37,131 nucleotides of DNA from Clostridiales bacterium (GTDB taxonomy: Bacteria > Bacillota > Clostridia > Oscillospirales > Ruminococcaceae): assembly GCA_012519635.1 (NCBI GenBank), contig JAAYPV010000058.1, forward strand, positions 1-37,131. The letters are read 5' to 3'. Under the pieces are notes generated by a model. That model was not told where the DNA came from. It made no database searches and worked only from the letters and a program-made list of their open reading frames with translations. The translations under genes were made by a program, and so were the position numbers. This document shows, one piece after another, positions 25,971 through 31,003 of this stretch. Position 1 is the stretch's first letter, and every line of letters starts with the position of its first letter.

Positions 25971-26651
25971 ATGGATAAAAAGAAAATTAATATTGCAATT
26001 GATGGACCAGCTGGAGCTGGAAAAAGTACGATAGCAAAGGGTATATCAAAGAAGCTGGGCTTTATATATGTAGATACAGGTGCATTATATAGAGCAATCG
26101 CATATTATGTTTTAAAAAAAGGAAAGGACCCATCACTTGAAAGTGATGTTGAGCCATTTTTGAGTAAAATTGCTGTTGAGCTGAAATTTATTGATGGTGA
26201 ACAGCGAGTATTTGTGAATGATGAGGATGTTTCCGATAAGATAAGAACGCCTGAGGTATCGATGGGCTCATCAGCTGTTTCAGCAATTCCAAAGGTAAGG
26301 GAGTTTTTATTTGAGCTGCAAAGGAAGATTGCAAGGGAAAATGATGTAATTATGGATGGCAGGGATATTGGAACTGTTGTTCTGCCGAATGCTGATTTAA
26401 AAATTTTTCTTACAGCCACTCCTGAGGAGAGGGCAAGAAGGCGTTATAATGAGCTTAAGGATAAAGAAAATTCGCCCACATATGAAAAAATACTTGCAGA
26501 TATTAAAATTAGGGATTATAATGATAGTAACAGGGCTGTTGCCCCATTGAAACAGGCTGATGATGCTATTTTACTTGATACAACAGATTTGAGTCTTGAA
26601 GATTCTATAAATAAAGTGGTAGAATTGGTTAAAAAATTACCGAATCAGTAA
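25971..26651 (+). CDS. cmk: Cytidylate kinase
   Basis: Phosphorylates CMP and dCMP with ATP in pyrimidine nucleotide supply. The 226-residue protein has the P-loop GPAGAGKST (about 13-21), the CMP-binding YVDTGALYRA segment and the RDIGTVVLP region typical of bacterial cytidylate kinases. The lid region EERARRRYNELKDK and the closing RDYNDSNRAVAPLKQADDAI also match. TAGGAG lies 12 nt before the ATG, a little far but usable. The gene is in a compact run with the flavoprotein, a GNAT gene, plsC and ispH. Confidence 0.96.
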   Translation: MDKKKINIAIDGPAGAGKSTIAKGISKKLGFIYVDTGALYRAIAYYVLKKGKDPSLESDVEPFLSKIAVELKFIDGEQRVFVNDEDVSDKIRTPEVSMGSSAVSAIPKVREFLFELQRKIARENDVIMDGRDIGTVVLPNADLKIFLTATPEERARRRYNELKDKENSPTYEKILADIKIRDYNDSNRAVAPLKQADDAILLDTTDLSLEDSINKVVELVKKLPNQ

Positions 26652-27128: not shown

Positions 27129-27719
27129 ATGTATACGATTGCAAGATATATTGTACTGCTGATTTATAAGATTGTATATAATCTATCCTATGAGGGTGTT
27201 GAGAACATTCCCAAAGAGGGTGGAAGAATATATGCATCAAACCACAGAAGCTATGCTGATCCTGTTCTGATATCTTTACCAGTAAGAAAAAGATTTGCCT
27301 ATATGGCTAAAGAGGAGCTTTTTAAAAATCCGTTTTTTTCTGCACTCATAAGGTTTATGGGCGCATTTCCCGTTGTAAGAGGAAGTGGCGATATGAAAGT
27401 AATAGATGAGGCAATAGCGAGACTTAATAAGGGTAGAAATCTTGTAATCTTTCCTGAGGGAACACGCTCTAAGGATGGAAGGGTTGGCAGAGGTAAAACA
27501 GGTGTTGCATTAATTGCAGCAAAAGCAAATGTGGATGTTATACCTGTTGCAATAGTTTTTGAGGGTAAATTAAAGTTTCGAAAAAAGGTTGTTGTTAAAT
27601 ATGGCAAGCCGATAAGTGCATCTCAGTTACAGATAGGTGATAAACTTGTGCCATCAGAACTGAAAAAATTGAAAAATATGGTGATGGAATCAATTACAGA
27701 ACTTGTTGATTACAGATAA
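27129..27719 (+). CDS. plsC: 1-acyl-sn-glycerol-3-phosphate acyltransferase
   Basis: Adds the second acyl chain to lysophosphatidate at the inner membrane face to make phosphatidate. The 196-residue protein has the catalytic SNHRSYADP (the HX4D motif) and FPEGTRSKDG, with AYMAKEELFKNPF and GAFPVVRG between them, all in the family order. It begins with a short hydrophobic segment (about 5-18) that would anchor it. The length is that of short bacterial PlsC enzymes. Acyl-donor choice (acyl-ACP or acyl-CoA) is not visible. It is tightly placed between the GNAT gene and ispH. Confidence 0.93.
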   Translation: MYTIARYIVLLIYKIVYNLSYEGVENIPKEGGRIYASNHRSYADPVLISLPVRKRFAYMAKEELFKNPFFSALIRFMGAFPVVRGSGDMKVIDEAIARLNKGRNLVIFPEGTRSKDGRVGRGKTGVALIAAKANVDVIPVAIVFEGKLKFRKKVVVKYGKPISASQLQIGDKLVPSELKKLKNMVMESITELVDYR

Positions 27720-27746
27720 TTTACATATAATAAAAAGGATAGTTTT

Positions 27747-29747
27747 ATGGTTGAAATAAAAGTAGCTAAGACTGCTGGATTTTGTTTTGGGGTTGACAGA
27801 GCAGTCAGGCTTGTTTATAATGAGATACAAAAGGGCGAAAAATGTGTAACCCTTGGACCGATTATTCATAATAAACAGGTGGTTAATGATTTGCAGGAAA
27901 AGGGAGTAAGAATAATTGAGGATGTATCGGAGTATGAGTCCGATGAAAGGGTTATAATTCGCTCGCATGGGGTCGGACAGTCAATATATGACAAGTTAGA
28001 GCAAAACGGAAATAAATATATTGATGCAACTTGTCCATTTGTTGCAAGAATTCACAAAATTGTAAAAGATAAAACACAAGAAGGATATATAATATTAATA
28101 GCAGGTGATTCTGAGCATCCTGAGGTGGTTGGAATTACTGGACATGGTGATAATAATTGCATCGTTTTTAAGAATTCTGATGAGTTAAAAGAAATCTTTT
28201 TAAAAAATTCAGACTTTTTGGAAAAAAAGGTTGCAATTGTTGCGCAAACAACGTATAATATTATATTATGGGAAGAGTGTCTGAAAGCTTTACCTAAGAA
28301 TAATTCTAATATAATAATATATGATACTATTTGTAATGCAACCTCATGTAGACAGGAAGAGGCAGTGGAGTTATCCAAGAGCTCTGATATAATGATTGTA
28401 ATTGGTGGAAAGCATAGCTCAAATACAATAAAGCTTTATGATGTCTGCAAGGAACATTGTAATAGTACTTATCATATTGAGAATTCTGATGAGCTTTTCG
28501 CTTTGAACCTTACTAATGCTAAAAAAATTGGCATTACCGCCGGCGCATCTACACCGGCTTATATAATTAAGGAGGTACAAACAAAAATGACTGAAATTTT
28601 AAATAATTTCGACGAGGACATTAATTTTGAGGAGGCTCTTGCACAGTCTTTCAAAAAAATACATATAGGGGAAAGGGTAAAGGCTTACGTTGTTTCTGTT
28701 AATAATAGTGAAGCTATTGTTGATGTGGGTACAAAACATACAGGATATGTACCTCTTTCAGAATTAACTGATGATCCAACGAAAACTCCAAGCGATATCC
28801 TGAGCGTTGGCGATGAAGTTGAATTGATTGTAACTAAGATTAACGATCAAGATGGAATTGTTACTCTTTCAAAGAAGAAGATTGATGAAACACTTGGCTT
28901 TGAGCAGATTATAAAGGCAAAGGAAGAAAATTCTGTTGTTGATGGTATTGTTCAGAATGTAGTCAAGGGTGGTGTATTGGCGTCTCATAATGGTGTAAGA
29001 GTATTTATTCCCGCATCACAAACAGGACTTGGCAAGAATTCTAAGCTTGAAACATTGTTAAAGAAAAAAGTTGAGTTTACAATCATTGAGGTTAATGAGC
29101 AGCGTCGTAGAGCAGTAGGTTCTATCAGTGCAGTTTTAAGAGCTAAAAGAGAAGAAGCTAAGTCTAAATTTTGGGAAACAGCTGAGGTTGGTAAGGTTTA
29201 TAAAGGTGAAGTTAAGTCTATCACAAATTATGGAGTGTTTGTTGATTTAGGCGGCGTTGATGGAATGATTCACATTTCTGAGTTGTCATGGGGAAGAATT
29301 AAGCACCCAACCGATGTTGTACAGCTGGGCGATGTTGTTGAGGTGTTCATAAAAGAACTTGACAAGGATACAAACAGAGTTTCATTGGGTTATAAGAAAA
29401 TTGAAGATAATCCATGGGAAAAATTCAAGGCTCAGTTTAATGTTGGAGATGTTATAAAGGCAACTATCGTGTCAATTACACCTTTTGGAGCATTTGCACA
29501 GATTATTGAGGGTGTTGATGGTCTAATTCACATTTCTCAGATTGCTAATCGCAGGGTTGACAATATTAATGAAATTCTTTCTATTGGCCAGGAAGTAGAT
29601 GTAAAGATACTTGAAATAGATATGGATAAGAAACGCATTAGTATTTCCATGCGTGCATTGCTTGAGGAAGAGTCTGAGGCTGTAGAGGAAGTTACTGAAG
29701 AAGCAGTAGAAGTAACTGCAGAGGTTGATACAGCTCAGGCAGAATAA
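27747..29747 (+). CDS. ispH: IspH (HMBPP reductase) fused to four S1 RNA-binding domains
   Basis: IspH is the last enzyme of the MEP isoprenoid pathway. It reduces HMBPP to IPP and DMAPP with a 4Fe-4S cluster. Residues 1-280 form the IspH domain with the cluster cysteines Cys13 (GFCFGVDRA), Cys96 (DATCPFV) and Cys196 (DTICNATS). Four S1 domains follow (about 306-377, 395-463, 482-550 and 567-636; for example SITNYGVFVDLGGVDGMIHI), then an acidic tail. The IspH-RpsA fusion is characteristic of many Clostridia, where it may double as ribosomal protein S1. At the junction an in-frame ATG (28587, Met281) follows a strong AAGGAGG, so free S1 protein could also be made. AAGGATAG precedes the main start. 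Confidence 0.97.
   Translation: MVEIKVAKTAGFCFGVDRAVRLVYNEIQKGEKCVTLGPIIHNKQVVNDLQEKGVRIIEDVSEYESDERVIIRSHGVGQSIYDKLEQNGNKYIDATCPFVARIHKIVKDKTQEGYIILIAGDSEHPEVVGITGHGDNNCIVFKNSDELKEIFLKNSDFLEKKVAIVAQTTYNIILWEECLKALPKNNSNIIIYDTICNATSCRQEEAVELSKSSDIMIVIGGKHSSNTIKLYDVCKEHCNSTYHIENSDELFALNLTNAKKIGITAGASTPAYIIKEVQTKMTEILNNFDEDINFEEALAQSFKKIHIGERVKAYVVSVNNSEAIVDVGTKHTGYVPLSELTDDPTKTPSDILSVGDEVELIVTKINDQDGIVTLSKKKIDETLGFEQIIKAKEENSVVDGIVQNVVKGGVLASHNGVRVFIPASQTGLGKNSKLETLLKKKVEFTIIEVNEQRRRAVGSISAVLRAKREEAKSKFWETAEVGKVYKGEVKSITNYGVFVDLGGVDGMIHISELSWGRIKHPTDVVQLGDVVEVFIKELDKDTNRVSLGYKKIEDNPWEKFKAQFNVGDVIKATIVSITPFGAFAQIIEGVDGLIHISQIANRRVDNINEILSIGQEVDVKILEIDMDKKRISISMRALLEEESEAVEEVTEEAVEVTAEVDTAQAE
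28569..28589 (+). promoter_or_regulatory. Internal ribosome site and start at the IspH/S1 junction
   Basis: AAGGAGG (28569-28575) lies 11 nt before an in-frame ATG at 28587-28589, which is codon 281 and the first residue after the IspH domain. In-frame translation would yield a 386-residue protein with four S1 domains. The sequence also encodes Lys-Glu-Val in the fusion, so the site may be partly coincidental. Confidence 0.5.
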
Positions 29748-29811: not shown

Positions 29812-29833
29812 TTTCTATTATTTTGTGGAGGTA

Positions 29834-31003
29834 ATGGATATTAATATGGATGTGTCGGCAATTATAGTTTGTGCTGGGAATTCCAGCCGTATGAATGGTC
29901 AGGATAAAATGCTTTTAAGGCTTGGAAATACAAATGTAATGGGAATGTCTATGCTTGCATATGAAAGATGTAAAAGCATAAAGGATATTGTGGTTGTAAC
30001 AAAAGAATGTCTTATACCAACTGTAATGGATACTGCTAAGCGGCTTGGAATAACAAAGCTGACTCATATTGCTGTTGGAGGAGAAACAAGGCAGCAGAGT
30101 GTAATTAATGGATTGAAGCTGATAGACAAGGATACCACTATGATAGCTATTCATGATGGTGCAAGACCACTTGTTGAGCCAGAGGATATAGAGAAAACAA
30201 TAAAGGACGCAAGGGTATTTGGTGGTGCAGTACTTGGAGTTCCTGTTAAGGATACGATAAAAGTAGTTGATGATGGACTTGTGGTGGATACTCCATACAG
30301 ACCGAAATTATTTATAACACAAACACCACAAGTTTTTAAAAGGAGATTATATTTTGAAGCTGTGGAATTTGCAATAGCGAATAGATTGGATTTTACAGAT
30401 GATTGTCAGCTTGCTGAATCCATAGGTGCAAAAATTTACATGACAGTCGGAGACTATAAAAATATAAAAATAACAACACCTGAGGATATAAAAATTGCAG
30501 GTGCTATTCTGGATAAACAGGAGGACAATATGCGAATTGGAAAGGGCTATGATGTTCACAGGCTTGTTAAGAACAGGAAATTAATTTTAGGAGGAGTTGA
30601 AATACCTTATAAAAAAGGGCTTGAGGGCCATTCTGATGCGGATGTTCTTACTCATTCAGTGATGGATGCGTTATTGGGGGCGTTGGCTCTAGGAGATATT
30701 GGAAAGCATTTCCCTGACGATGATGATCAGTTTAAGGGTGCAGACAGTATAAAGCTATTGGAAAAGGTATATGAAAAAATTGATGAGATGGGGTATAAGA
30801 TTGGCAATATTGATTCTGTTATAGTGGCTCAATCGCCAAAGCTTTCTGCATATATTGATAGTATGAGGGAGAATATAGCAAAGGCATGTAAAACAGATGT
30901 ATCTAATATCAGTATAAAAGCAACTACGGAGGAGGGACTAGGTTTTACAGGTGAAAAGCTTGGTATCGTTGCACATTGCATATGCTTGCTGAATCAGAAA
31001 TAA
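29834..31003 (+). CDS. ispDF: Bifunctional IspD-IspF (MEP pathway)
   Basis: IspD couples MEP to CTP, and IspF cyclises the later intermediate to MEcPP. The IspD half (about 1-225) has [13 protein letters not shown] with the CTP-binding loop, then VKDTIK and [12 protein letters not shown]. The IspF half (from about 233) has YDVHRL, the metal site [27 protein letters not shown] and [11 protein letters not shown]. The order D then F matches known fusions. The start is uncertain: GGAGG at 29827 is only 2 nt from the ATG at 29834 and 14 nt from the next ATG (29846), which fits the usual IspD start better. A GTG at 29825 has no site. At 30530 an in-frame ATG with AGGAGG at 5 nt marks the IspF start. 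Confidence 0.94.
30519..30532 (+). promoter_or_regulatory. Internal ribosome site and start of the IspF half
   Basis: AGGAGG (30519-30524) lies 5 nt before an in-frame ATG (30530-30532), and the residues after it ([12 protein letters not shown]) match the normal N-terminus of free IspF. Spacing and match are as good as at any real start in this window. Confidence 0.7.

Follow-up and report, generated by a model that had tools for sequence, protein, structure and literature searches.

Conserved signals at the seam of the clostridial ispH-S1 fusion gene point to a gene within a gene

In infB (IF2) and clpB, a single open reading frame yields two in-frame products by way of an internal ribosome site. 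For these genes and for cas8/cas11, we know of no intragenic promoter that shifts its position between clades. The cas8/cas11 gene (Cas11b, PMC11899642) likewise gives two in-frame products from one reading frame through an internal ribosome site, the arrangement that we infer here, but none of the three is a fusion of two unrelated housekeeping genes, unlike the present locus. In the Rpn genes-within-genes (Zhong et al. 2023, PMC10327210), an internal in-frame start allows separate translation of a C-terminal domain, and an RNA start also lies inside the gene. The short Rpn product is the antitoxin of the long one, whereas the short product here would be a complete ribosomal protein, one that the long product joins to a metabolic enzyme. 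The fusion itself is also known: genes joining IspH to S1 repeats were described in anaerobic Firmicutes as IspH-RPS1 Rosetta stone fusions (Rao et al. 2015, PMC4746011), the family catalogued as NCBIfam NF000907 / PRK00087. That study treats the product as one polypeptide, and the words internal, start codon and Shine are absent from its text; our comparison, by contrast, gives the S1 half a conserved start of its own and, in many lineages, a promoter-like element. Genes within genes (PMC10327210) and the fusion (PMC4746011) are thus both known, while an internal start or promoter in ispH-S1 is unreported in the literature that we found. Subscription papers and supplements lay outside this search and prior notice is possible; ribosome-profiling papers on acetogens are silent about IspH-S1 in the main text, their supplements not being covered.

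We analysed a stretch of 37,131 nucleotides (the window; contig JAAYPV010000058.1) assigned to a Clostridiales bacterium of the Ruminococcaceae, in which ispH and S1 form one reading frame (table 1). The IspH part is 4-hydroxy-3-methylbut-2-enyl diphosphate reductase, an enzyme of isoprenoid synthesis. Pfam LYTB covers residues 4-281 and is followed by four S1 matches, the first S1-type domain beginning near residue 308. The bifunctional IspH/S1 model NF000907 matches at full length over residues 3-653 with 734 bits, above its curated cut-off of 624 bits, and the gene shows the layout of that family, a single IspH domain and then four S1 repeats. This is the only LYTB match in the assembly, and among the assembly's S1-family matches a four-domain cluster occurs only here. 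The gene that follows (29825-31003, 392 aa) looks from sequence features like an IspD-IspF fusion, so that two fused MEP-pathway genes adjoin; the pair is preceded by a cmk-like gene (25971-26651) and a plsC-like gene (27129-27719).

Table 1. Coordinates of the features discussed, as positions in the window.
Feature	Position	Strand	Remark
Weaker Shine-Dalgarno AAAGGA of the ispH start at 27747	27734..27739	+	duplex -6.0 kcal/mol
Fused ORF, IspH + four-domain ribosomal protein S1	27747..29747	+	666 aa, single ORF
Site A, -35-like hexamer TTGCAA	28231..28236	+	in register with the -10 in the window's clade
Site A, -10 hexamer TATAAT	28254..28259	+	codons Tyr170-Asn171
Site B counterpart, degenerate TACTAT	28325..28330	+	codons 193-195; TGATACAAT in most other order members
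Internal Shine-Dalgarno AAGGAGGT	28569..28576	+	within Lys275-Glu276-Val277 codons
Putative start codon ATG of separate S1	28587..28589	+	codon 281; in-frame, conserved in relatives
Nested S1 coding sequence	28587..29747	+	386 aa, four S1 domains

The preliminary description had pointed to AAGGAGG lying 11 nt before an in-frame ATG at the IspH/S1 boundary, and to Lys-Glu-Val being written there as AAG GAG GTA. Position, frame, codon number and codon choice all proved correct. The junction (28560-28589) reads tatataattaaggaggtacaaacaaaaatg; AAGGAGG occupies 28569-28575, and the ATG begins 11 nt past the last G of GGAGG. Paired with a standard 16S tail, this site forms a duplex of -12.5 kcal/mol against -6.0 for the one that precedes ispH, and the internal site was the stronger of the two in 235 of 264 genes. 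The tail sequence was not taken from this genome, as no 16S 3' end or anti-Shine-Dalgarno was found in the incomplete assembly. The motif alone is not rare: AGGAGG followed by ATG after 5-13 nt occurs five times in the window against 2.4 in shuffled sequence, so significance had to come from relatives, and only comparison with them ruled out a chance pairing in an AT-rich window. We further observed that the two Ile codons just before the site (28560-28568) are frequently written ATA ATT, GC-richer relatives included (ATA in 67 of 100 against 20 expected), which makes an AU-rich stretch immediately upstream.

A match was present in all of 120 relatives from 109 genera, and most had the full fusion. 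For the comparison we took 115 regions from the order, 80 named loci (among them Ruminococcus, Faecalibacterium and Flavonifractor) and, at class and phylum level, a further 110 or so regions and loci. After removal of duplicates, 284 fused genes with a readable junction, from genus to phylum, made up the comparison set. GGAGG followed 5-14 nt on by an in-frame start codon was present in 281 of them (ATG in 278, GTG in three), and the remaining three read AGAGAGG or GAGGGGG, both near-Shine-Dalgarno sequences, with the ATG kept. The spacer was exactly 11 nt in 269 fusions. Ten genes place the start one codon earlier, with an 8 nt spacer, and it is still a start codon there; the start moves with the spacing (8, 11 or 14 nt) yet is always ATG or GTG.

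Could the protein alone explain this, the Lys/Glu-Glu-Val and Met residues serving IspH and the ribosome site being a by-product? Glu276 and Val277 are nearly invariant and the LYTB profile reaches as far as the Met, as such a constraint would have it. What is conserved, however, is the third base. Glu276 was GAG in 282 of 282 genes, while GAG makes up only 44% of the other Glu codons of the same genes, and Lys275 was AAG in 182 of 182, against 51% elsewhere. Residue 275 itself varies among K, E, R, Q, M and L, and its third base is nonetheless G in 283 of 284. With an ATG or GTG in frame in all 284, the check proposed in the preliminary description, whether relatives keep the Met and prefer GAG to GAA at this codon, came out in its favour. 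At other [KERQ]EV triplets of the same genes, which served as background in place of a genome-wide set, GGAGG appeared in 49 of 339. Moreover, IspH genes without a neighbouring S1 had GGAGG in none of six cases (L259, L330, L331, L332, L334 and L335; absence of S1 judged within the fetched stretch only), and the residue aligned with the Met was I, V or L. A pure amino-acid constraint is refuted by this synonymous conservation, and we hold the by-product reading to be close to untenable.

Related genes are not independent, an objection that we answered on a tree of the S1 half: codon 276 showed no GAG/GAA change, while five other near-invariant Glu codons each changed at least 26-33 times. The same counts bear on whether the site is a relic of an ancestral ispH-rpsA operon that stopped working when the frames fused. 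Relatives with split genes, a two-gene layout either ancestral or derived, carry the same site, which would suit a relic. But a relic would decay as the other Glu codons have switched, and the conservation spans the phylum sample. The tree rules this origin out as a sufficient account, and we consider it extremely improbable.

Two further properties of the junction were examined. The residue after the internal start was Ser in 144 genes, Thr in 31 and Ala in 13 (188 of 284), resembling, as far as sequence can tell, true N-termini from which Met is removed. RNA from -20 to +24 of the internal start is unusually weakly folded, at -3.45 kcal/mol compared with -7.65 around the remaining codons of these genes (Wilcoxon p about 1e-44). 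The junction meets the definition of an in-frame Shine-Dalgarno and start codon inside an open reading frame, conserved beyond coding needs, and is very probably a conserved internal translation start, initiation there being inferred.

Relatives in which the frames are not joined served as natural controls. In six of them (L144, L148 and L325-L328), ispH runs to its own stop and the S1 reading frame is a separate, out-of-frame gene starting 9-10 nt behind the same GGAGG. In L326-L328 the start was read as GTG by position, and the exact start of L326 is unconfirmed. These six are overlapping or translationally coupled gene pairs with the S1 start inside the end of ispH; the window differs from such pairs in that its frames are joined and the upstream gene makes the fusion only. 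In four other relatives (L118, L333, L260 and L264), S1 starts further downstream and the GGAGG at Lys-Glu-Val is gone; in L118 and L333 a Shine-Dalgarno-like sequence adjoins the later start. Judged from these layouts, the site follows the S1 start and not the IspH protein, and in the unfused relatives it is the sole apparent start of S1. Within one genus, the fused L147 and the split L148 differ by one A in the run after GGAGGT (eight against seven); a slip of one base could turn either arrangement into the other, or one of the assemblies may contain an error.

The controls also speak to a role in elongation. Pausing at internal Shine-Dalgarno motifs has been proposed, and this sequence lies exactly between the domains, where slowed ribosomes would let IspH fold before S1 is made. 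A pause needs no start codon, yet one is always present and keeps step with the spacing; and the site coincides with the apparent S1 start of out-of-frame relatives and disappears where S1 starts further on. We regard pausing as a very improbable explanation.

In the codon scan that had ranked the junction, a still higher peak lay inside ispH, at codons 187 and 193-195 (ACA in 78 of 78 against 17.6 expected, ACA in 88 of 114, ATA in 90 of 112). The peak corresponds to a promoter-like element, absent from the preliminary description and here called site B, of the form T[AGT]TACA-17-TGATACAAT. Its -10 is of the extended type and close to the best that Asp-Thr-Ile-Cys can encode, and codon constraint across the gene reaches its maximum at this site (among carriers, ACA in 178 of 178 and ATA in 166 of 178; unbiased z 14-17). 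Site B was labelled in 130 of 188 genes of the order, most of those outside the window's clade; in the wider class sample its -10 was present in 25 of 44, roughly half, but the site was rare in the other classes sampled. It is absent from the window's clade, which instead carries site A, 24 codons further upstream: TTGCAA-17-TATAAT at 28231-28259 (codons 162-171), matching the consensus at 10 of 12 positions. All 36 order members with Tyr-Asn at this place write it TAT AAT, against 16.2 expected. The two sites are nearly mutually exclusive, with site A in 31 of the 188 order genes, site B in 130, neither in 27 and both in full in none. On the S1 tree, site A genes cluster in a single group, 17 in number, that lies within the site B genes (support 93, not starred), which fits one replacement event.

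Both sites have a 17-nt spacer, inside the 16-18 nt taken to define sigma-A promoters, and hexamers conserved in register at synonymous positions. Codon shuffles of single AT-rich genes were not significant (p = 0.57 for the window; order medians of 0.12 with site B and 0.22 for the others), so the claim of a promoter rests on conserved position and mutual exclusion. On that footing, and without RNA data, we consider a conserved promoter inside ispH likely. An RNA hairpin, which would form by pairing of TGTACAAA with TTTGATACA, was another candidate for site B; genes with -35 variants that would break this pairing keep the -10. The window also holds a perfect 12-of-12 sigma-A consensus, TTGACA-17-TATAAT, at 27793-27821, just 46 nt into ispH; both hexamers recur in L039, and other close relatives repeat TTGACA but mostly not the -10. 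Codons 95, 224-225 and 229 of ispH (window numbering) show raised synonymous conservation in site B carriers (z 9-12), explained by neither promoter nor ribosome site.

The comparison demonstrates base-level conservation of the ribosome site, the start codon and the promoter-like hexamers, and places the S1 start of unfused relatives at the same site. These data leave room for internal initiation on the full-length message only, coupled to ispH translation or not, with the promoter-like elements arising by chance or serving another role. In other classes of the phylum no promoter-like element was seen, only the ribosome site, and the per-gene shuffles are weak. Such a reading does not account for the exceptional constraint on site B codons, the 17-nt spacer and extended -10, or the replacement of sites A and B by one another from clade to clade. 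It remains possible, but we think it unlikely.

The reading that we find highly probable is a gene within a gene, which makes both the fusion and, from the internal site, free S1, probably with a promoter of its own; initiation and transcription are inferred. That the gene could make both products had been suggested in the preliminary description, and the comparison supports it. Ribosomes starting at 27747 would make the IspH-S1 fusion, while those binding AAGGAGGT at 28569 would begin at 28587, on the in-frame ATG, and yield free S1 with its four domains. A spacer of 11 nt is rather long for this, though S1 starts at 9-10 nt in the unfused relatives. Because no stop separates the two parts, IspH would be made only as the fusion unless it is cleaved afterwards; S1 would be made alone as well, probably in excess, since its site is the stronger. 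For the window's clade, a promoter of the sigma-A type at 28231-28259 would probably give a shorter transcript with an RNA start predicted near 28266, of which S1 would be the only large product; in lineages with either site, the shorter message would yield S1 alone.

Catalysis by IspH does not need the S1 repeats, the Clostridium thermocellum enzyme being active with or without them, and no other ispH or rps1 gene was reported in organisms bearing the fusion (Rao et al., PMC4746011). Together, these observations fit a requirement for S1 production separate from that of the enzyme. The relative amounts of the products and this purpose, an S1 supply independent of an iron-sulfur enzyme, are likewise inferred.

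On balance we favour a wider picture, held with less assurance, in which much of the phylum keeps two genes in one frame and free S1 is the main product, made from the embedded ribosome site and, in many lineages, from an embedded promoter spelled out in synonymous ispH codons, which moved once within the coding sequence in the window's clade. IspH would then be locked to S1 while S1 dosage is free, and a share of the iron-sulfur enzyme would possibly be placed on ribosomes or mRNA. The fusion, with its near-unchanging seam site, is shared by gut and anaerobic bacteria that make up a large group, and for very many species public annotation lists the locus as a single bifunctional protein. The locus would clearly exemplify an enzyme whose coding sequence maintains both a promoter and a ribosome site, and it can be tested directly through its natural variants, namely the split genes and the clades with site A or site B. 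Should free S1 arise from within the fusion, the way in which these bacteria supply a ribosomal protein has been misunderstood, and the fusion no longer argues for a one-to-one tie between isoprenoid synthesis and the ribosome.
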